A program made the position numbers and the translations under genes. From Deltaproteobacteria bacterium (GTDB lineage Bacteria > Myxococcota > Myxococcia > Myxococcales > 40CM-4-68-19), in contig VBLC01000080.1 of NCBI GenBank assembly GCA_005879315.1, forward strand, positions 1-40,051: a stretch of DNA of 40,051 nt, written 5' to 3'. Below are positions 15,931-25,920 of this stretch, piece by piece (the first letter of the stretch is position 1; every line of letters begins with the position of its first letter). The notes beneath the pieces were generated by a model that had not been told where the DNA came from, did no database searches, and worked only from the letters and a program-made list of their open reading frames with translations.

Positions 15931-17469
15931 ATGCTCCTCGCACTGCTCCTCGCCGATCTGCTGGTCTTCCATGGCAACGTGGCCATGGTCGAGGACGTCT
16001 ATCGCAGCGTGCTCGAGTTGCCGCCCGGCATGAAAGCGACGCCGGACAACGCCCACTCGGTCGCCACCCGCCTGCGCCGCTTTCTCCGCCGCGCCGGCTA
16101 TTCCCTCGCGACGGTGCGCGCGCGCGCCGAGGCCAGTCACATCGTCGTCGACGTCGACGAAGGGCGGCTGGACAAGACCATCTTCCTCGGCGGCGGCGCT
16201 TTCGAGACCCTGCGGCTGCGGCTCGACCTGCACCTCGACCACGACGTCTTCAACAAGTTCGAGCTGGAGCGGCAGCTCAGGGGACTGGCCCACCGGCTCG
16301 GGCTCGCCGATTTCGCCTACGAGGTGGTGCCGGTGCCGGACGTCCCGGCGCCGCGGCTCTCGCTCGACGAAGTGGAACCCCTCGAGGAGCTCTCGCTCGG
16401 CCTGGTTCGGCCGGGGCGGCCGTACGAGCTGCACATCCTCGTGCAGCCCGGCGTCTTCCGATCGGGGATCTCGCCCGAGCTGCAGGTGGACTCGATCGAA
16501 GGCGGCGGCCTCGGCGCCACATACAACACGGGCCGCTTGATCTTCACGGAGGATCGCTTGCGCCTCGGCGCCCGCATCGCCGGCGCGCTGCGCGACCGGC
16601 TCGACAACAGCGGCACCCGTTTCGTCTTCACCCGCGCGACCGGTGACGTGGCGTATTTCGCGCCGCCCATCTGGCCCTGGTTGCGCCCCGCCATCCGCGG
16701 CCGCGCGGACTTGAGCTCGCGGCAGCGGCCCGATCTGCAGCTGGAGTCGTTCGAGTTCGCCACGCTGGAGGGCGGCGTCGACGTCGTCTTCCAGCCTCAC
16801 GCCGCCATCCGCAGCCGCGTCGGCGGCGGAGTGGAGCGGCGTATGCTCTACGGCCTGCAGGGCGTCGGGAGCGCGCCGCCTCCCCCGAGCCTGCCGGCTT
16901 CCGTGGCCCAGAACCGCCCCTACGCCGAGGCGAGCCTCGAGCTGACTTTCGATCCGCGCGCGCTGCGCCGGGACCAGCACCACTTTCTCGGCCTGCAGGC
17001 TCGCGCGTACGGCAAGCCCGACGCGAATTCGAGGGGAGCGCTGCACCTCTCCGGCAGGTACCAGAAGATCGTCCACCTCGGCTGGCACGAGCTCTGGATC
17101 GAGTCGACCGGCTTCTCGCGCACCGGCGCGATCCTCTTTCCCGAGGAGGCCTCGGTCGGCGGCGGCGACGAGCTGCGCGGACCGTTCGGATCGGATTACG
17201 CGCGGCGGCTGGGGGCGTTCGACCTCGAGCTGCGCTTCTCACTGCTGCGCGACATCTTCAAGCTGGGCATTTTCCACAATGCCGTGGGGTACGGAATGAT
17301 CGATCGCGCGACCGGCAAGGAGACCGCCAAGCTCGCCGACGCCATGGGCCTGGGGGTGCACGCTCTCATCATCGATGAGTTTCAGCTGGACGCGTGGTTC
17401 GGCGTGGGATTCGCCAGCGGCGGCAGGTTCGGTTCGGGGGCTGCCCTCCGCATCGTCCAGGCCTACTGA
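15931..17469 (+). CDS. POTRA plus beta-barrel outer-membrane protein (BamA/TamA/ShlB-like)
   Basis: This 512-residue protein has a short hydrophobic leader, then a POTRA-like module (~20-100: SVATRLRRFLRRAGYSLATVRARAE..HIVVDVDEGRL) and a second alpha/beta stretch (~70-130: VFNKFELERQLRGLAHRLG). The C-terminal half has alternating strands (YAEASLELTFDPRAL, FDLELRFSLLRDIFKLGIFHNAVGYG, FQLDAWFGVGFASG) ending in IVQAY. POTRA domains mark the Omp85/TpsB superfamily, which inserts or secretes outer-membrane and two-partner-secretion proteins. At 512 residues it is shorter than BamA and nearer to TpsB or TamA size. No secreted partner gene is adjacent. The annotated ATG has no clear ribosome binding site and sits directly after a GC-rich hairpin. 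Assembly or lipid-transport functions cannot be distinguished here. Confidence 0.7.
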   Translation: MLLALLLADLLVFHGNVAMVEDVYRSVLELPPGMKATPDNAHSVATRLRRFLRRAGYSLATVRARAEASHIVVDVDEGRLDKTIFLGGGAFETLRLRLDLHLDHDVFNKFELERQLRGLAHRLGLADFAYEVVPVPDVPAPRLSLDEVEPLEELSLGLVRPGRPYELHILVQPGVFRSGISPELQVDSIEGGGLGATYNTGRLIFTEDRLRLGARIAGALRDRLDNSGTRFVFTRATGDVAYFAPPIWPWLRPAIRGRADLSSRQRPDLQLESFEFATLEGGVDVVFQPHAAIRSRVGGGVERRMLYGLQGVGSAPPPPSLPASVAQNRPYAEASLELTFDPRALRRDQHHFLGLQARAYGKPDANSRGALHLSGRYQKIVHLGWHELWIESTGFSRTGAILFPEEASVGGGDELRGPFGSDYARRLGAFDLELRFSLLRDIFKLGIFHNAVGYGMIDRATGKETAKLADAMGLGVHALIIDEFQLDAWFGVGFASGGRFGSGAALRIVQAY

Positions 17470-17485: not shown

Positions 17486-18229
17486 TCAGTGCGCAGCGAG
17501 TCGCAGGTCGAGCGCCGCCGCGATCTCCCTCGCCTTCGCCTGGATCAATTTCGTGTTCCGCGGTCCCATGCGGAGCAAGTGCTTCTCCACCGGCCCCAGC
17601 GACTCCAGCCGCTCGTCAGCGAACTGCCAGAGCGCTCCCTTCGACTTCAGCGCCGGCGGAGCCTCGCTCACCGGCGTATCGAGGAGCCGCTGCAGCGCCG
17701 ACTGCACCGCGGAGTCGATGCTGCGGTCGGGATACCCCAGCTTGTGGTAGGCGGCCTCGAGCAGCGGGTGCAGCTCGCGCACCGCCGCGGCGAACGCGCG
17801 CACATCGACGGAGGCGACCGCGTCGGCGAACAGATCGTAGCGCTGGTAGCTGCGCGGATCGACGGAGGCGCGCCCTCCTTTCTCCAGGGCCCTGAAGGGC
17901 GCCTTGGGCGCGAGCATGGCGAGCTGCTTTCGCGGGCTCACGTCGAGCGCGAGGTTGTCGGTCAACACCGCCCAGCGATCGAGCAGCGCGTCCTCCTTCA
18001 GCCACTCGCGCAGCCGGGGCGAGGCTCCCGCCAGAAGCGATCGGATGCGCGCATCGCTCTCCGCCGCTGGCGGCAGCGGAGCGTCGGCCGGCTTCACAGC
18101 CTGGGCCGGCACGGGCGGTACGAACGCCGACTCGGCGGGCTTCGACTGCATCCGGTACCAGGCAGTGAAGCCGATCAACCCGGCGGCGACTGCGGCGACG
18201 ACGATCCAGAGGCGCTGGCTCATGCCCAT
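17486..18229 (-). CDS. DUF3014 membrane-anchored protein
   Basis: This 247-residue protein has an N-terminal membrane anchor (LWIVVAAVAAGLIGFTAWY), a Pro/Ala-rich stretch (~28-58) and a globular helical domain typical of DUF3014 (PF11219): WAVLTDNLALDVSPRKQLAML, SYQRYDLFADAVASVD, ELHPLLEAAYHKLGYPDRS and a C-terminal KHLLRMGPRN. The family's function is unknown; members occur widely in proteobacteria. It follows the kinase-like gene on the same strand by 42 bp and probably shares its transcript, so it may be a partner of that signalling protein. Its end faces the POTRA-barrel gene 16 bp away. Confidence 0.85.
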   Translation of the reverse strand: MGMSQRLWIVVAAVAAGLIGFTAWYRMQSKPAESAFVPPVPAQAVKPADAPLPPAAESDARIRSLLAGASPRLREWLKEDALLDRWAVLTDNLALDVSPRKQLAMLAPKAPFRALEKGGRASVDPRSYQRYDLFADAVASVDVRAFAAAVRELHPLLEAAYHKLGYPDRSIDSAVQSALQRLLDTPVSEAPPALKSKGALWQFADERLESLGPVEKHLLRMGPRNTKLIQAKAREIAAALDLRLAAH

Positions 18230-18271: not shown

Positions 18272-21121
18272 CTATCGCGACTCGAGGCGTCCGGAGCCGC
18301 GCACCCGCGCAAGTCGGGCCCGCGCATCGCGCAGCTCGGGCAGATCGGAGTCGGCCTTGGCCCAGGCCTTGAGGAACCTCTCGGTGCTCTCGGCGGACAG
18401 CTTCCGCTGCCCGCTGCGCTCGTAGAGCACGCCGAGCTGGTAATCGCTTCGCGCCCGGAACATCCCGCCGAATCCTGGCCCGGGCGCAGTCACGGCCGGA
18501 AAAGTGGCCCGCGCTTTGGTGAGGCTCTCGATCGCCCGCTGGTGCTCGCGCGCCTGCGTCCAGCTGTCGGCGACCAGATAACCAAGGAAGTCGCGGTAGG
18601 GCGACTTGTTGGCGAGCGACTCGAGCGCGCTCGCCGCCGCGGCGTGATCGCCCTTCTTGCGCTTGCTGAAGGCCGCCACCGATTTCTCCGCGAGGGGATC
18701 GCCGGCCTGCCGCAGGGCCGCGCCGTATTTCTCGAGGTCACCGTACAGCGGATAGAGGAAGGCGAAGGCCGTCTCGGGTACGCCGCGCGCCACGGCTTCG
18801 CGGGCGATGCGTCGCGCGCCCTCCGCCTCGCGGAGGAAGAGAAAACGCGCCAGACCCTCGTTCGTCAGAGCGACCGCCTCCATCTCCGGGTCGCCCGCAT
18901 CGCGCGCGTCGGCGGCGGCTTCGTCGAAGGCGCGCAGCGCTTCGCGGATTCTTCCGCCCTGTGCGAGCGCGCCGCCCAGCACGAGGCGGCCGATGAGCCG
19001 ATCGTGCGCCGGCCTTGCGCCGTGCAGCAGCGGCGCCAGGGCAGCCGCGGCGCCCTCCGCGTCGAAACGCCAGGCGAGAAGGGCGGCGCGATCCGCTGCG
19101 GGGAGCGGACTGCGGGGGAAGAGCCTCGCCGCTCTGTCGAAGGTGCGCTTGGCGCTGTCGAGATCGCCCGCGGCCGCCTGCGCCCGGCCGAGATGGCCCC
19201 ACGATTCGTCGTTGCCGACTGCCTCCAGGTAGGCGCGGGCCGCGGCGATCGTCGCCAGCCGATCCCCGAGCAGCTGCTCTGCCCAGATCAGGTGTTGATG
19301 GGCGCGCTCCATCGCCGGATCGAGAGCGAGCGCGTCGCGAAAGCGCGGCAGCGATCGGCCCGGGTTCCCGGCATGGAAGAGGATCTCGCCGAGCATGAAC
19401 GGACATTCCTTCTCGGCCGGCCAGCGCCGGGTGCAATCGCGATAGAGGCTGGAGGCCTCATCTCCGCGAGAAAAGAGGATCGCGCGCATCGCCTCCGCCA
19501 GCAGGCGCTCCTTGTCGGGCAGCTTGTCCGCGCTCTGCACGGCGCGCTCGATCGCCTCCCGCGCGCGCGCGCCGTCCTGCATCCACATCAAGGACCAGGC
19601 GAGGCGGTACCAGGCGAGAGCGAAGCTGCCGTCGATCTGCAGCGCGGCGCGAAACTGATCGGCCGCGCGCGAGAACTGCAGATGATCGACCAGCTCCTCG
19701 CCGCGGAAATAGCGCTGGTACGCCTCGATCTTGTGCGTCGTCACCTGCTCGACGGCGGCGGCCGGCTTCGGCTTGTCGTCGAGGCTGCTGCGGGCTGCCA
19801 GGGAGAGACGGTCGATCATCGCGGGAACGCTCGCCTTGCCGGTCCCCTCTTCCTTGAAGGCAGCCACGTACTGATTCGTGCGCGGGTCGAGCATCTTCAA
19901 ATCGATGACGTAAAGGCTGTCGAACTTGCGGACGGTCGCGAGCAGGAGGGCCTGGGCCTGCGCCCGCTGCGCCACTTCGCGGCCGAGCGCCTCGTCGATC
20001 CGCGGCGTGGCGCCGCGCCCCGCCTGGCGGAGCAGGTCGAACATGCGCGAGCGCGTCAGGACCGAGAGCTTTCGCGACTGCTCCAGCGAAGTGATCAGCA
20101 TCCCCGACAGCCCGTCGAGGCCCTCGTCGCCGGTCTCGTTGGCGAAGTCGGCCACCGCCACCGTCACGGGCGCGCTGCGGCCGAAGAGCTGCCAGAGCAG
20201 CGGAATGAAGAGCAGCAGCGCGAGCGCGGTCAGGGCGGCGCTCAGCGGCCTCGGGCGCTTGATCTTGCGGAGCGACTTCCCGATGCGAGTGGGCGGCCGC
20301 GCCAGCACCGGCTGGCCGCTGAGCGACCGCTGCAGGTCCTCCGCCAGCGCTTTCGCGCTCTGGTACCTGTGCTCCGGCTTCTTCTCCAGGCACTTGAGGA
20401 CGATCCTCTGCACGTCCCCCGGCACCCCCTGGGGGGGCTGCGGGTCGTCGTTGAGCATTTTGTACAAAATCTGCAGTTGCGAGGCGCCGTCGAAGGGCGG
20501 CCGGCCCGTGAGCGCCTCGTAGAAGGTCGCGCCGAGGCCGTAGACGTCGGTGCGCGCATCGACTTGCGGGCGGCCGCTCGCGGCCTGCTCCGGCGCCAGG
20601 TACTGCGGCGTACCGAGCGGCGCTCCCTCCTGCCTCGCGCCAGGCGAAGGCAGATCTGGCAAGAGCCCGAAGTCGGTGAGGAAGGGCCGCAAGTCGCCCT
20701 CGGAATCGATCTCGATGAGGATGTTGGCGGGCTTGATGTTGCGATGGACCAGGCCGAGCTGGTGCGCGGCGTGCACCGCCTCGGCGACGTCGCGCAGCGC
20801 CGCCGTCTTTTGCACCAGCGAGAGCTCCTTGGCCGCCGCGCGCAGGGTCTTGCCCTCGATGTACTGCATGGCGATGCAGGGCTCGTCGCCGATCCGGCCC
20901 ACTTCGTAGACCTTGCAGATGTTGGGGTGATCGATGCGGGCCTGGGCTTGCGCCTCCTGCAGAAAGCGCCGCCCCAGCGCGGCGTCCGCGCCGCGGAGGA
21001 ACTTGAGCGCCACCGAGCGCCGCAGCCTGCGGTCGAAGGCTTTGTAGACTTTGCCCATGCCGCCGGCGCCGATCGGCTCGACGATCTGGTAGCGCTTCGA
21101 GTCCGGCAGCTCCTCGGCCAT
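18272..21121 (-). CDS. Transmembrane Ser/Thr kinase-like protein with HRN catalytic loop, TolB/FlgO-like domain and TPRs
   Basis: Residues 11-270 form a PknB-type kinase fold: glycine loop GAGGMGKVY (18-26), Lys40 in VALK, Glu56 in helix C, DFG at 150-152 and APE at 176-178. The catalytic loop reads H126-R127-N128-I-K-P-A-N; the catalytic Asp is replaced by Asn (codon AAC at 20738-20740). Such a change normally abolishes or strongly lowers phosphotransfer, so this is a candidate pseudokinase. A transmembrane helix (~293-313) leads to a TolB-N/FlgO/CsgG-like domain (VTVAVADFANETGDEGLDGLS..., ~318-440), and residues ~450-940 are a long TPR-like array. This architecture is common in myxobacteria, but normally with an intact HRD. 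The kinase half is cytoplasmic and the TPR half probably periplasmic. Confidence 0.9.
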   Translation of the reverse strand: MAEELPDSKRYQIVEPIGAGGMGKVYKAFDRRLRRSVALKFLRGADAALGRRFLQEAQAQARIDHPNICKVYEVGRIGDEPCIAMQYIEGKTLRAAAKELSLVQKTAALRDVAEAVHAAHQLGLVHRNIKPANILIEIDSEGDLRPFLTDFGLLPDLPSPGARQEGAPLGTPQYLAPEQAASGRPQVDARTDVYGLGATFYEALTGRPPFDGASQLQILYKMLNDDPQPPQGVPGDVQRIVLKCLEKKPEHRYQSAKALAEDLQRSLSGQPVLARPPTRIGKSLRKIKRPRPLSAALTALALLLFIPLLWQLFGRSAPVTVAVADFANETGDEGLDGLSGMLITSLEQSRKLSVLTRSRMFDLLRQAGRGATPRIDEALGREVAQRAQAQALLLATVRKFDSLYVIDLKMLDPRTNQYVAAFKEEGTGKASVPAMIDRLSLAARSSLDDKPKPAAAVEQVTTHKIEAYQRYFRGEELVDHLQFSRAADQFRAALQIDGSFALAWYRLAWSLMWMQDGARAREAIERAVQSADKLPDKERLLAEAMRAILFSRGDEASSLYRDCTRRWPAEKECPFMLGEILFHAGNPGRSLPRFRDALALDPAMERAHQHLIWAEQLLGDRLATIAAARAYLEAVGNDESWGHLGRAQAAAGDLDSAKRTFDRAARLFPRSPLPAADRAALLAWRFDAEGAAAALAPLLHGARPAHDRLIGRLVLGGALAQGGRIREALRAFDEAAADARDAGDPEMEAVALTNEGLARFLFLREAEGARRIAREAVARGVPETAFAFLYPLYGDLEKYGAALRQAGDPLAEKSVAAFSKRKKGDHAAAASALESLANKSPYRDFLGYLVADSWTQAREHQRAIESLTKARATFPAVTAPGPGFGGMFRARSDYQLGVLYERSGQRKLSAESTERFLKAWAKADSDLPELRDARARLARVRGSGRLESR

Positions 21122-21169: not shown

Positions 21170-22243
21170 TCACTGGACCAGCTCGAGCAGCGCGGCGAAG
21201 GCGCCGGGCAGGCGGGCCACCGCTCCGACGGCCTTGCGCCGCAGCGCCGGCCGCCGGGAGAGCGCGACCAGGGCGTGCGCCGGCGCGGCATAGCGAAGCC
21301 AACCGGCGCGCAAGGAGTCGTCGTAGCGGCGGAGGGCCGGCGACAGATCGCTCGACAGATCCTTCGGCAAGGCACGAAGCAAAAGGCGCGAGGCGACAAA
21401 GGCGAGCGAAAGCCCCTGCCCGGTGATGGCGTCGACATATCCCGCGGCATCCCCGCACAGAGCGAGGCGGTCTGCATGCCGAGCCCGGACGCGCTGCAAG
21501 AGCGGCCCCGCCCCTCGCGCTTCGGTCTCGGCGGCTGCGCCGCGCAAGCTCTCCAGGAGTCGCGGGAAATGCGCGAGCAGCTCATCGAAATGCGCGCGCT
21601 TCTCCTGCCAGAGAAAAGCGACGTTGACCCGCTCCGGCCCGACCGGCGTGACGTAGGCTTCGACGCCATCGGCCCAGTGGACCTCGACCAGATCCGTCCA
21701 GGGCCGCAGGGCGAAGTGCCGCCGGACGCCGAAGCGCTGCAATCCGGATCCCTGCAGCTCCAGCCCCGCCGCTCGCCGCAGCGGCGAGTGCAGCCCATCG
21801 GCGGCGGCGAGCAGCCGCGTCTCGATCGGTCCATCGTCGGTGCGCACCTCGATCAGGCCTTCGCGAGCCTTCGCTTCGAGCACCGTCGCGCGGCGGATCT
21901 CTGCCCCGCACTCGAGCGCCCGCTCCCGCAACGCGCGCGTCAGCGCCGTCCGGCGGATGCCAAGGCCGCTGCCGCGCCGGAAGCGCGCCTCGACGGAAGC
22001 GCCGTTTTCCTGAAGGTAACGGATGCCGCGGAATTCCATCCGGTCGGCGGGCGCGATGCGCCCCAGCGCGCCGAGGCTCTCCAGCTCGCGCAGGCCGCTC
22101 GGCATCAGCCCTTCGCCGCAGGCCTTGTCGGGGATCTCCGCGCTCCGCTCCAGCACCACGGCGCGCAGTCCCGCTTGGGCGGCGCGGATGGCGAGGGCCA
22201 GCCCCGCCGGCCCTCCGCCGGCGATGGCGATGTCCCAGATCAC
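21170..22243 (-). CDS. FAD-dependent oxidoreductase (geranylgeranyl reductase / PHBH-like family)
   Basis: This 357-residue flavoprotein has an N-terminal dinucleotide-binding motif IAGGGPAGLALAIRAAQAG with the following LER, the CGEGLMPSGLREL segment typical of geranylgeranyl-reductase-like proteins, and the second FAD motif GDAAGYVDAITGQGLSLAF. Family members reduce isoprenoid double bonds or hydroxylate aromatic and polyketide rings. Its ATG overlaps the stop of the fatty acyl-AMP ligase (ATGA at 22240-22243), and it is the last gene of the four-gene type III PKS operon. Context therefore favours oxidation or hydroxylation of the polyketide lipid product, as flavoprotein hydroxylases do in other type III PKS clusters. 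Confidence 0.9.
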   Translation of the reverse strand: MIWDIAIAGGGPAGLALAIRAAQAGLRAVVLERSAEIPDKACGEGLMPSGLRELESLGALGRIAPADRMEFRGIRYLQENGASVEARFRRGSGLGIRRTALTRALRERALECGAEIRRATVLEAKAREGLIEVRTDDGPIETRLLAAADGLHSPLRRAAGLELQGSGLQRFGVRRHFALRPWTDLVEVHWADGVEAYVTPVGPERVNVAFLWQEKRAHFDELLAHFPRLLESLRGAAAETEARGAGPLLQRVRARHADRLALCGDAAGYVDAITGQGLSLAFVASRLLLRALPKDLSSDLSPALRRYDDSLRAGWLRYAAPAHALVALSRRPALRRKAVGAVARLPGAFAALLELVQ

Positions 22244-23907
22244 AGCCCGGCGCGCAGCCGTGCGGCCATCGACCGCGCTGCCTCGCCGACGAGGCCGAGG
22301 AAGGTCACCTTGCGCGGCGCCCGCAGCGAGCCTTGCAGATGCAGGCGCAGCGCCTCGGCGCGGCGCAGCTTGCCGCTGGAAGTGCGCGGCAGCGTCCCCG
22401 GCGCGAGCAGATGCACCTGGTCGGGCCGGATGCCGGTCCGCTCCAAGAGGCGCGCGCGGATTTTTTCCCCCAGCGCGGGATCGTCGGTGGTGCGCTCGAC
22501 GAGAAGGACCAGCTCCTCTCCGGACTCGGTGACGCAGCCCACTGCGGCAGTGCAGCCGGGGCGCACGCCCTCGAGCCCGTCGAGCGCCTCCTCGAACTCC
22601 TGCGGCGCGTGGTTCTTGCCGCGAAGGATGATGAGGTCCTTCTCGCGGCCGCAGATGAACAGCTCGCCAAAGGACGTGAAGCCCAGATCGCCGGTCTCCA
22701 GCCAGCCGCCGCGCAGCGCCTCGCGCGTCGCCGGTTCATTGCCGAAATAGCCCGCCATCAGCGAAGGTCCGCGCACCCGGACGGGACCCACGGTGCCGTC
22801 GGGGAGATCGTCGCCAATCTTCACCTCCATGCCGGGCAGCGGCGCGCCCACCGAAGGAAGCTCGCGCTGCTCCAGAGGCCGCGTCCGGGCGCCGCGGCCC
22901 GGCGGCGTGAAGGTGACCGCGAGCGACGCCTCGGAGAGGCCGTAGACGGGCATGAAGGCGCGCGCGTCGAATCCCCAGGGAGCGAATCGCTCGGCGAAGC
23001 GGCGCAGCACCGCCGGCGCGACCGGCTCCGCGCCGTTGAGGGCGAAGCGCCAGGAGCTCAGGTCGACCCCGCGCAGATCCTCGTCACGGACGCGCCGCGC
23101 GCAGAGGCCGTAGGCGAAGTTCGGCGCAACCGAGATCGTCGCGCGCTTGCGCGAGATGGCGCGCAACCAGAGCGCCGGCCGGGCGAGAAAGGTCTCCGGG
23201 CCGAGCAGGGTGAGCGGTCCTGGATGGACCACCGCCAGGAGGAGGCAACCGATGAGCCCCATGTCATGGTAGAGCGGCAGCCAGCTGACGCCCGCCTGCG
23301 CATCGTCGCGCGGCACGAAGGTATCGATGGCGGCCGCGTTGCACAGCACGTTCCAATGGGTGAGCGCGACCGGCTTGGGGTCGACCGTCGTCCCCGAGGA
23401 GAACTGGATCAGCGCCAGGTCGTCGGGGGTCGAGGGCTCTTCGAGCTCTTCGCCCAGCTCGACCGGCCGCAGGCCCAGCTCGGGCCGCGCCTGCGAGACC
23501 GCCACGCCGAGCAAGCGCGAAATGCGCGCGTCGCTCAGGACGATGCGCGCCCCCGTCGCCGCCAGCATGCGCGCGGTGCGCTGGTGGAACTCGTCGAGGC
23601 GTGCCAGCCGCACCGGCGGATAGAGCGGAACCGGCACCGCTCCTGCGAAGAGCGCACCGAAGAAAGCATCCATGAACTCGACGCCGGTGGGCAGGACGAT
23701 GGCCACCCGATCGCCGCGCCGCACGCCGCGCTCGCGCAGCGCTCCGGCCGCCTGGCGCGCCCGCCGGTGCATCTCTGCGAAGGGCAGCGCCCGCTCGCGC
23801 TCCTGCGCGTCGACGAAGGTGAGCCCGATCGCACTCTGCGCGGCAGCGGCCAGCGCGCGCGGGATCGTCTCGTGCCGGGGCCGCGGCATCGGCGCGCCGC
23901 TCAGCAT
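22240..23907 (-). CDS. Fatty acyl-AMP ligase (FAAL-type adenylate-forming enzyme)
   Basis: This 555-residue protein shows the adenylation core motifs: QFSSGTTVDPKPVALTH (P-loop), SWLPLYHDMGLIG (a signature of fatty acyl-AMP ligases), ALNGAEPV, YGLSEASLAVTF, the hinge-side ETGDLGF and the C-terminal PRTSSGKLRR with the catalytic Lys. FAALs activate long-chain fatty acids as acyl-AMP and hand them to an acyl carrier protein rather than to CoA. An ACP gene lies immediately upstream and overlaps it by 7 bases (ATG 23907 inside the ACP stop region), a textbook partner arrangement. ATG at 23889 is an alternative start. The acyl-chain length cannot be predicted from sequence. Confidence 0.92.
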   Translation of the reverse strand: MLSGAPMPRPRHETIPRALAAAAQSAIGLTFVDAQERERALPFAEMHRRARQAAGALRERGVRRGDRVAIVLPTGVEFMDAFFGALFAGAVPVPLYPPVRLARLDEFHQRTARMLAATGARIVLSDARISRLLGVAVSQARPELGLRPVELGEELEEPSTPDDLALIQFSSGTTVDPKPVALTHWNVLCNAAAIDTFVPRDDAQAGVSWLPLYHDMGLIGCLLLAVVHPGPLTLLGPETFLARPALWLRAISRKRATISVAPNFAYGLCARRVRDEDLRGVDLSSWRFALNGAEPVAPAVLRRFAERFAPWGFDARAFMPVYGLSEASLAVTFTPPGRGARTRPLEQRELPSVGAPLPGMEVKIGDDLPDGTVGPVRVRGPSLMAGYFGNEPATREALRGGWLETGDLGFTSFGELFICGREKDLIILRGKNHAPQEFEEALDGLEGVRPGCTAAVGCVTESGEELVLLVERTTDDPALGEKIRARLLERTGIRPDQVHLLAPGTLPRTSSGKLRRAEALRLHLQGSLRAPRKVTFLGLVGEAARSMAARLRAGL

Positions 23908-24137
23908 GCGCGGCGCTCCAGAACCAGCGCCGCCAGGTCGGCGACGGTGCGCACGCGCGCGGCGTCCTCCTCGGAGAGGATGACGCGAAAGCGATCCTCC
24001 AGGCCGACCACCAGCGTGACGAGGCCGAGCGAGTCGAGCTGCAGGTCGGCCACCAGGTCGTCCGCAGGCCGGACCTCGCGTTCGAGCGAGAGCTCTTCGC
24101 GCAGCACGCGGCGGATCTCGGCGACCACCTCATCCAT
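23901..24137 (-). CDS. Acyl carrier protein
   Basis: This 78-residue protein has the four-helix ACP pattern and the phosphopantetheine site at Ser36 in DLQLDSLGLVTL. Helix III (LSEEDAARVRTVADLAALV) is also typical. It starts 3 bp after the stop of the type III PKS and its end overlaps the FAAL start, so all three are co-translated. It is expected to carry the fatty acyl chain made by the FAAL and present it to the type III PKS as starter. A phosphopantetheinyl transferase is needed but not encoded here. Confidence 0.93.
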   Translation of the reverse strand: MDEVVAEIRRVLREELSLEREVRPADDLVADLQLDSLGLVTLVVGLEDRFRVILSEEDAARVRTVADLAALVLERRAC

Positions 24138-24140
24138 CGA

Positions 24141-25190
24141 TCACCATTGCAAGAGCACCAGCTCGGAGCAGAAGCCGGGGCCCATCGCCGAGAGCAGCCC
24201 GTAGTCGCCGGGCTGCGGTTCGCCCGAGGCGAGCAGGTCTGCGAGCACGAAGAGCACCGAGGCGGAGGAGAGGTTCCCCGCCGTCTGCAGCGAATCCCAG
24301 CTGCGCTGCAGCGCCCGGCTCGGCAGCTCCAGCGCCTCCTCGACCGCCTCGAGCACCTTGGGCCCGCCCGGGTGGCAGATGAAGTGGCGGATGCCGGCGC
24401 GCGAGAGGCCCTGCTCGGCGAGAAAGGCATCGACGTCGCCGCGCAGCCGCTCGCGCACCAGCTGCGGGACGGCAGGCGAGAGCACGACCTTGAATCCGGA
24501 GTCGACGATGTCCCAGCCCATCACGCGCTCGGTGCCGGGATAGAAGATCGATCGGGTGGCGACGATCCGCGGACCGCGCCCGCGCGCGCCGCCCTCCAGC
24601 ACCACCGCCGCCGCGCCGTCGCCGAAGAGACCGCTGGCGATGATGTTGGGGATGGAGAGATCCTCGCGCTGCAGCGTGAGCGAGCAGAGCTCGACGGCGA
24701 GCAGCACCGCGATCTCGCCGGGCGCTGCGCGCAGGACGTCGTGCGCGCGGGAGATTCCCGCAGCGCCGGCCACGCAGCCGAGGCCGAAGATGGGCACGCG
24801 CTTGACCGAGTCGCGCAGGCCGAGCGGCTCGACCAGGCGCGCGTCGATCGAGGGCGTGGCGATGCCCGTGACGGTGACGAAGAAGAGATGATCGACCTGG
24901 GCAGGAGCGAGGTCCGCGGCGAGCAATGCGCTGCGCACGGCGCGCTCGCCGACGAGGGTCGCGGCGCGCGTCCAGGCGGCGTTGCGCGCGGCGAAGCTCT
25001 CCAGCGCGGAATACTCCTCGAGGGGCAGCGCCAGGTGCCGCCCGCCGACGCGCACCGCGCGGTGGAGCTGCTCGAGCCGCTCGAGATTGAAATGCTTCTT
25101 CCCCCAGTGCTCGCGGAAGGCGGCGAGCAGCGTCTCCTGATCGACGTAGTTGTCGGGCAGCGCCGTCTGTGCCGAGAGAACGCGGGTCAC
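24141..25190 (-). CDS. Type III polyketide synthase (chalcone/alkylpyrone synthase family)
   Basis: This 349-residue thiolase-fold enzyme has the full Cys-His-Asn triad: Cys139 in FGLGCVAGAAG, His273 in FICHPGGPKVLEA and Asn306 in TAGNLSSASVLFVL. The C-terminal GPGF loop (MGPGFCSELV) of type III PKSs is also present. Such enzymes extend an acyl starter with malonyl-CoA and cyclise it to alkylpyrones, resorcinols or related phenolic lipids. I chose the GTG at 25190 because GGAG precedes it and the longer in-frame reading would run across the divergent PilZ gene start. It is the first gene of the operon with ACP, FAAL and FAD enzyme. Direct ACP-borne fatty-acyl priming is the likely logic here, in place of acyl-CoA. 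Confidence 0.93.
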   Translation of the reverse strand: MTRVLSAQTALPDNYVDQETLLAAFREHWGKKHFNLERLEQLHRAVRVGGRHLALPLEEYSALESFAARNAAWTRAATLVGERAVRSALLAADLAPAQVDHLFFVTVTGIATPSIDARLVEPLGLRDSVKRVPIFGLGCVAGAAGISRAHDVLRAAPGEIAVLLAVELCSLTLQREDLSIPNIIASGLFGDGAAAVVLEGGARGRGPRIVATRSIFYPGTERVMGWDIVDSGFKVVLSPAVPQLVRERLRGDVDAFLAEQGLSRAGIRHFICHPGGPKVLEAVEEALELPSRALQRSWDSLQTAGNLSSASVLFVLADLLASGEPQPGDYGLLSAMGPGFCSELVLLQW

Positions 25191-25266
25191 CGCCTCTCCA
25201 CTCGCACCCGGTGGACCCGGCCGCAAGCACTTCCAACTTGGCTGGCCGTCATGGAACAGTGCGGCC

Positions 25267-25920
25267 ATGCGGAAGCCGCTGGTCTTTCCCGTGCGCTTCG
25301 TCGCCGAGGGGCAGACGGTGCAGAGCACTTCGCGCGACCTGGATGAAGAGAGCGTCTTCGTCCGCTGCGTCGAGCCGCCCGAGCGCGGCGAGCGGGTGGT
25401 TCTGCGCCTCTATCTGCCGGGGATCGCGGCGGGAGATTCTCTCGAGGGCGCTGTCACCGAGACTTCCTCCGAGGGATTCCGCGCCTCCTTCACCGACCTG
25501 CCGGAAGAGGCGCGGCAGCAGATCCAAGCGGCTCTTGCCGCTGGGCCGTCTGCGCAGCCGGCGGCCGTCGAGCCGCTCGAGCACCCGTCCGCCGCCGAGC
25601 GGCGTCTCTTGCCCCGCTACCTCGATCGGTTTCGCGTCACGCTGCAATTCGCCCGACACCGCGCCCAGCGCGAGGCGCTCAACCTGAGCGCGACCGGGCT
25701 CTTCATCCAGACCGACGCGCCGCCGGCCATCGACCAGATCGTGCAGGTGATCCTGGAACTGCCCGACGGCAAGCCGCCGGCCGAGACGCAAGCGATCGTC
25801 GTCCACCGCGTCGTGCCGGGCGACGTCGCCGTTCCAGGCGCGGGCGTGCAGTTCATCGCCGCGGACGACGATTTCCGGGCGCGGCTCGACGCTTATCTGG
25901 AGAAGCTTTACCGGCGTTAG
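25267..25920 (+). CDS. Tandem PilZ-domain protein
   Basis: This 217-residue protein has two PilZ-like halves. The C-terminal half (~110-215) has LPRYLDRFRVTLQF, NLSATGLFIQTD and GAGVQFIA, which match the RxxxR and N-x-S-x-x-G signatures used to bind cyclic di-GMP, although the first Arg pair is spaced loosely. The N-terminal half (~1-95) has the PilZ-like beta pattern (FPVRFVAEGQTVQSTSRDLDEESVFVRC) but without clear N-x-S-x-x-G. It is divergent from the type III PKS with 76 bp between starts. The end converges on the next gene with overlapping stops (TTAG at 25917-25920). Confidence 0.85.
   Translation: MRKPLVFPVRFVAEGQTVQSTSRDLDEESVFVRCVEPPERGERVVLRLYLPGIAAGDSLEGAVTETSSEGFRASFTDLPEEARQQIQAALAAGPSAQPAAVEPLEHPSAAERRLLPRYLDRFRVTLQFARHRAQREALNLSATGLFIQTDAPPAIDQIVQVILELPDGKPPAETQAIVVHRVVPGDVAVPGAGVQFIAADDDFRARLDAYLEKLYRR

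Follow-up and report, generated by a model that had tools for sequence, protein, structure and literature searches.

The locus analyzed here raises the question of whether a receptor-kinase-like protein whose catalytic loop reads HRN in place of HRD is a pseudokinase and, if it is, whether it represents a conserved family, a recent loss in one lineage, or an artifact of assembly. The window (the whole stretch of 40,051 nucleotides that was analyzed) is one whole contig, G000:C105, of G000, its own genome, which is a MAG of 4.43 Mb in 125 contigs, estimated to be 97.55% complete. The kinase gene, its features, and its downstream neighbor are located as follows.

18272..21121, minus strand: receptor-kinase-like protein, 949 aa (open reading frame and translation, Pfam, AF2 models)
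20342..21091, minus strand: Ser/Thr kinase domain, PknB-like, residues 11-260 (PF00069)
21002..21004, minus strand: Lys40, ATP-binding lysine, kept (alignment)
20954..20956, minus strand: Glu56, helix-C glutamate, kept (alignment)
20738..20740, minus strand: codon AAC, Asn128 replacing the catalytic Asp, HRN (sequence, ortholog alignment)
20666..20674, minus strand: DFG motif, residues 150-152, kept (alignment)
20588..20596, minus strand: APE motif, residues 176-178, kept (alignment)
20177..20251, minus strand: single hydrophobic (TM) segment, residues 291-315, after a Lys/Arg-rich stretch (hydropathy)
19916..20167, minus strand: CsgG/TolB-like region, residues 319-402, below threshold (PF03783, 20.5 bits against a cut-off of 20.8)
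18287..19753, minus strand: TPR solenoid, residues ~457-945 (Pfam TPR families, all-helical model, Foldseek)
17486..18229, minus strand: DUF3014 protein, 42 bases downstream of the kinase (Pfam, 156.1 bits)

The reading frame of the kinase gene is intact across all 949 aa, which are laid out as a kinase domain, one TM segment, a putative CsgG/TolB-like region, and a TPR solenoid. At 20738-20740, the plus strand reads GTT, so the minus strand carries AAC, an Asn codon, in frame as residue 128, and the catalytic loop around H126-R127-N128 is LVHRNIKPANILI. The HRN change described in the initial annotation is confirmed, with the right coordinates and residue numbers. Alignment also confirms that Lys40, the helix-C glutamate (Glu56), DFG, and APE are kept; Lys130 and Asn133 are likewise present. 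The same annotation paired the kinase with a DUF3014 neighbor, which was recovered, and with a TolB/FlgO-like plus TPR half, of which the TPR part is borne out by Pfam; the TolB/FlgO-like label for the region past the TM segment is plausible and draws on the one CsgG match just below its cut-off.

Domain architecture and predicted structure

The Pfam Pkinase profile (PF00069) matches the protein at 138.6 bits (E 3.2e-40; cut-off, 31.7), which assigns it to the Hanks-type kinase fold and excludes HRN as a chance motif; for the domain span alone, the score is about 143 bits (142.6 over residues 11-260). The nearest solved structures by sequence are those of PknB (E 5.8e-52). An AF2 model of residues 1-314 has a kinase fold (pLDDT 85.3), and its best Foldseek matches are bacterial Ser/Thr kinases, with eukaryotic kinases also among the matches. 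No PASTA repeats were found in the 949-aa protein with Pfam at E 0.001, so it is not a PknB PASTA kinase; its score against the NCBIfam PknB_PASTA model, 264.3 bits, is below the cut-off of 450.

Residues 291-315 are the sole stretch with a 19-residue mean hydropathy above 1.6 (peak, 2.16). Since this single hydrophobic segment follows a basic stretch, the most likely topology places the kinase in the cytoplasm and the remainder of the protein in the periplasm. In the AF2 model of residues 315-949 (pLDDT 85.6), an alpha-beta domain is followed by an all-helical solenoid, for which Foldseek returned TPR superhelices and other helical-repeat proteins at low TM-scores over the query (0.20-0.38). 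The CsgG scores of the orthologs described below are 19.1, 19.6, and 25.2 bits, with none listed for the fourth (cut-off, 20.8).

Orthologs and gene neighborhood

A search of 60 related genomes, the window's own included, identified clear orthologs in four other genomes at 57-64% identity, all belonging to records titled Myxococcales or Deltaproteobacteria. Three of these genomes (G001, G002, and G003) are of the same genus as the window genome, and the fourth (G007) represents an outgroup genus. The DUF3014 gene lies downstream of the kinase in all three same-genus loci; around the G007 gene, a tblastn search of 19 kb did not recover it. On the other side, a compact operon-like run (21170-25328, minus strand), whose genes are 3-48 bases apart or overlap slightly, lies upstream of the kinase.

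21170..22243, minus strand: FAD-dependent oxidoreductase, 48 bases upstream of the kinase (Pfam)
22240-23907, minus strand: fatty-acyl-AMP-ligase-like protein, upstream run
23901-24137, minus strand: acyl carrier protein, upstream run
24141-25328, minus strand: type III PKS/chalcone-synthase-like protein, upstream run

The oxidoreductase is upstream of the kinase in three of the four orthologous genomes (G007, G001, and G002); the G003 contig stops within the kinase gene. Each orthologous locus shares gene neighbors with the window on at least one side, and this synteny supports the orthology of the four loci. The PKS, ligase, and oxidoreductase genes adjoin the kinase in G007 and G001, as do the ligase and oxidoreductase genes in G002; the 949-aa kinase may regulate, or be cotranscribed with, this biosynthesis cluster.

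Further features of these loci were observed. A gene with a POTRA match (15931-17469, plus strand), likely encoding an outer-membrane protein, is convergent with the DUF3014 gene and adjoins it in all three same-genus loci. The G002 ortholog (L098:4454-7497) shows a frame change near query residues 576-600 and an apparent repeat of query residues 759-846, and the G001 ortholog is interrupted by contig ends near residues 593-598; these disruptions seem to be assembly trouble or real breaks.

Distribution of the Asp-to-Asn change

All four orthologs have Asp at the catalytic position, encoded by GAC in G003, G001, and G002 and by GAT in G007; one transition, at the first base, therefore separates the three GAC loci from AAC. 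Among 30 loci, Asp was found in 24/24 of the non-window loci aligned at the catalytic site, the four orthologs included (five lack an alignment over the site, and one is the window's own). It was likewise found in 77/77 loci from named genomes, again with the four orthologs included, these being the best 77 of 133 relatives. A kinase survey of the window genome gave 28 places, 27 of them above the Pkinase cut-off; counting the two halves of one gene once gives 26 genes or gene pieces. The 25 besides the window gene all have Asp, and the subthreshold place has no alignment. A second genome of the window's species was not found among the relatives searched. The orthologs thus run against the initial annotation, which had proposed a nucleotide-binding pseudokinase working as a signaling scaffold and had itself named Asp in all orthologs as the refuting outcome: with Asp in every one of them, a family-wide pseudokinase reading is unsupported, the loss being seen in 0/4 orthologs and 0/77 of those best-ranked loci.

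At the DNA level, the pattern H-[R/S]-N-x-K-P-x-N has a single match in 12 genomes of the family, at the window site, versus 233 for the Asp version. It is present in 8/145 genomes of the order, where four of the other matches lie within kinase domains (three HSN and one HRN) and three have no kinase alignment. With Arg codons restricted to CGN, the pattern occurs in 7/195 genomes of the phylum; besides the window gene, two matches fall in kinase domains (L107 and L110) and four have no kinase alignment at the site.

The kinase domains at L102:3919-6408 (G075), L103 (G077), and L105 (G013) form a separate set whose catalytic loop reads PHSNLKP[DE]N and in which the Lys and DFG are kept; the one in L102, which alone was scanned, is fused to an FGE-sulfatase-like domain. 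Unlike in the window case, three genomes have the Asn in this set, which may therefore represent a true, conserved group of pseudokinases. Three other kinase domains have HRN together with an altered DFG: DPG in L106:4032-5543, DLG in L107, and DFV in L110.

The observed pattern, with Asn confined to one assembly and Asp in every aligned relative, is what would be expected whether the change is recent and fixed, a strain variant, or an error. The metagenome assembly could be wrong in its consensus at this base, or could have captured a minority strain variant, the population protein having Asp and being an ordinary kinase. A one-base transition confined to one 125-contig assembly, Asp in every aligned relative, and the lack of significant relaxation in the kinase domain (p = 0.08; see below) are consistent with this explanation, which we regard as unlikely but of appreciable weight. 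Against it, the 949-aa frame is intact; typical error rates suggest that a consensus error would seldom strike one of ~26 catalytic Asp codons, whereas HxN occurs naturally in kinase domains of the order (e.g., L102, L103, L105, and L106), and for this reason we judge a real change to be likelier than an error. We lean, with modest confidence, toward the view that the catalytic base was lost recently and privately in the lineage of one MAG, a loss that would have left an ordinary PknB-like receptor kinase crippled and probably still ATP binding.

Evolutionary rate of the kinase domain

The whole-protein Pkinase score of the window protein is 138.6 bits, compared with 152.6, 159.0, and 161.6 in three orthologs and 124.3 in G003, where the gene has no start. 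At kinase-domain sites invariant in the other four sequences, G000 departs at 22/139, the highest of the five (G007, 17/134; G003, 8/125; G001, 3/120; G002, 2/119); for residues 269-949, the corresponding counts are 49/315 in G000 and 66/332 in G007. The G000 branch also has A154L, R155P, and G182S, and the window kinase has a 4-residue deletion after residue 230 relative to all four orthologs (alignment columns 232-235).

In relative-rate counts with G007 as the outgroup, G000 versus G003 gave 34:15 in the kinase domain (p = 0.009) and 80:61 in the rest of the protein (p = 0.13), with no significant difference between the two ratios (Fisher p = 0.13); the comparisons with G001 and G002 gave p values of 0.22 and 0.08. 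With G009 as the outgroup, 3/3 kinase comparisons were significant (p = 0.003-0.011), as was 1/3 with G011 and 0/9 with G007b, G056, and G021. Branch lengths fitted freely for the kinase domain and the rest gave lnL -6820.01 (16 parameters), versus -6830.91 (10 parameters) for proportional lengths. When the branches were freed one at a time (1 df, a simpler substitution model, kinase versus the rest of the protein), a disproportionately fast kinase domain on the G000 branch was not significant (p = 0.08). On the common stem of G001 and G002 (L096 and L098), where Asp is kept, the kinase domain is faster than the rest predicts (p = 0.0009). Kinase-specific relaxation was rejected as corroboration, given that the heterogeneity comes mainly from this Asp-keeping stem. 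The window kinase domain appears mildly fast, with relaxation not demonstrated.

The changes near the catalytic site were set aside on similar grounds. Where all other sequences agree, G000 departs from them at 4/48 positions (D128N, A154L, M175L, and G182S), three of the orthologs at 0/44, and the fourth at 1/45; on long branches that keep Asp, the counts are 4/48 (G034) and 7/51 (the paralog G007b). At a looser threshold (0.93), G000 has 8/73 and the four orthologs 1 to 3, and G007b has 10/72, G009 7/76, G011 11/77, and G034 6/71. The window kinase has LLP after DFG, versus LAR in the four orthologs, and DFGLLP co-occurs with HRD in L013, just as YLSPE is found in PknB. Because HRD kinases have them too, neither LLP after DFG nor YL before APE/SPE corroborates a loss of activity.

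These data bear on whether the receptor was repurposed, under selection, as a nucleotide-binding, nonphosphorylating scaffold. The retained ATP-binding residues fit this idea, as do the additional changes on the same branch (A154L, R155P, G182S, and the deletion after residue 230), the 22/139 departures, and the outgroups that favor a faster kinase domain; primate PSKH2, with a lineage-specific D-to-N change described in excerpts of PMC9988210, offers a precedent. The absence of Asn from all four orthologs, the faster G001/G002 stem with Asp kept, and the conserved-site changes matched by G034 and exceeded by G007b, both with Asp, make it decidedly improbable. The recent private loss remains our preferred reading.

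Predicted catalytic consequence

Residue D136 of CaMKII is, we assume, its HRD Asp. A CaMKII D136N structure with Mg2+/ADP (5hu3, going by its title) was among the Foldseek matches of the kinase model, and nucleotide may therefore still bind after such a change. The HRD Asp is called the putative catalytic base in excerpts of PMC9988210, and passages of PMC7586955 state that its replacement by Asn "usually abolishes catalysis." RIPK1 D138N appears in part of PMC8026634 as an established inactivating change, used as a kinase-dead form. By analogy with these cases, the expected product is probably a folded, ATP-competent, catalytically crippled kinase. The Asn enzyme might instead retain useful activity, the change being near neutral, as the very low activity reported for the HRN domains of HER3 and JAK2 (excerpts of PMC9988210) would allow, but Asp in the genome's other kinases and in every aligned relative, together with the kinase-dead use of engineered D-to-N (PMC8026634, in part), renders this highly improbable.

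In a definition given in part of PMC12599244, a pseudokinase is recognized by sequence when at least one of the beta-3 Lys, the HRD Asp, and the DFG Asp is lost. The window copy, as represented by one assembly's consensus, fits this definition, with the HRD Asp replaced by Asn and Lys40 and the DFG Asp kept, which makes it a predicted pseudokinase, one that may still bind nucleotide. The residue pattern given in the initial annotation is therefore right, and its pseudokinase reading is supported in part; a conserved family is not supported, as 4/4 orthologs have Asp.

The proposed course of events begins with an ancestor that, like the orthologs, would have been a PknB-like membrane Ser/Thr kinase of the ordinary Hanks type, its kinase domain joined by a single TM helix to a CsgG/TolB-like plus TPR half on the far side of the membrane. 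In the lineage of one MAG, a single recent coding-strand G-to-A transition would have changed Asp128 to Asn, abolishing or strongly reducing phosphotransfer. The fold, ATP/Mg binding, and sensor half would have been retained, giving a recently crippled kinase that may then serve as a scaffold or may simply be on its way out. If real and fixed, the change would allow an active receptor kinase to be compared with one newly inactivated in nature within a single bacterial genus. A single odd catalytic residue in a single metagenome assembly does not make a pseudokinase family, and interest in the locus is low unless the base is confirmed and common to other strains. A bolder view, which we consider rather unlikely, is that this is a bacterial receptor kinase in mid-transition to a pseudokinase by one base, with the ATP site, sensor half, and neighborhood intact, as a counterpart of primate PSKH2 for which the HRD orthologs of sister species would be active controls.

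Comparison with known systems

Pseudokinases with HRN have precedents in PSKH2, HER3, and ActPs2, so the window protein offers little that is new. Among bacterial Ser/Thr kinases of the Hanks type, PknB provides the nearest solved structures and shares the single TM segment with a sensor half beyond it; unlike PknB, the window protein has no PASTA match and carries a putative CsgG/TolB-like region plus TPRs instead. The ActPs2 proteins, as characterized in passages of PMC12599244, are bacterial pseudokinases, often with TM regions, in which the HRD Asp is Asn; however, they are mainly actinobacterial, with a beta-3 Lys-to-Arg change, DFG mostly deleted, and long insertions. The window protein is not a member of this group, since Lys40 and DFG are intact and its orthologs are from Myxococcales/Deltaproteobacteria. 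HER3/ErbB3 is also a receptor with an HRN catalytic loop and an intact DFG, but excerpts of PMC13259870 list it without the helix-C Glu, whereas the window kinase keeps Glu56 and has HRD orthologs.

The human pseudokinase PSKH2, according to excerpts of PMC9988210 and PMC7586955, combines a lone lineage-specific HRD Asp-to-Asn change with retained ATP-binding residues, and most nonprimate PSKH2 orthologs keep HRD. It differs in being eukaryotic and in that the Asn is common to primates, versus one assembly here; in addition, those excerpts report that restoration of the Asp in PSKH2 gave no activity back. The closest parallel in kind to the window case is primate PSKH2.
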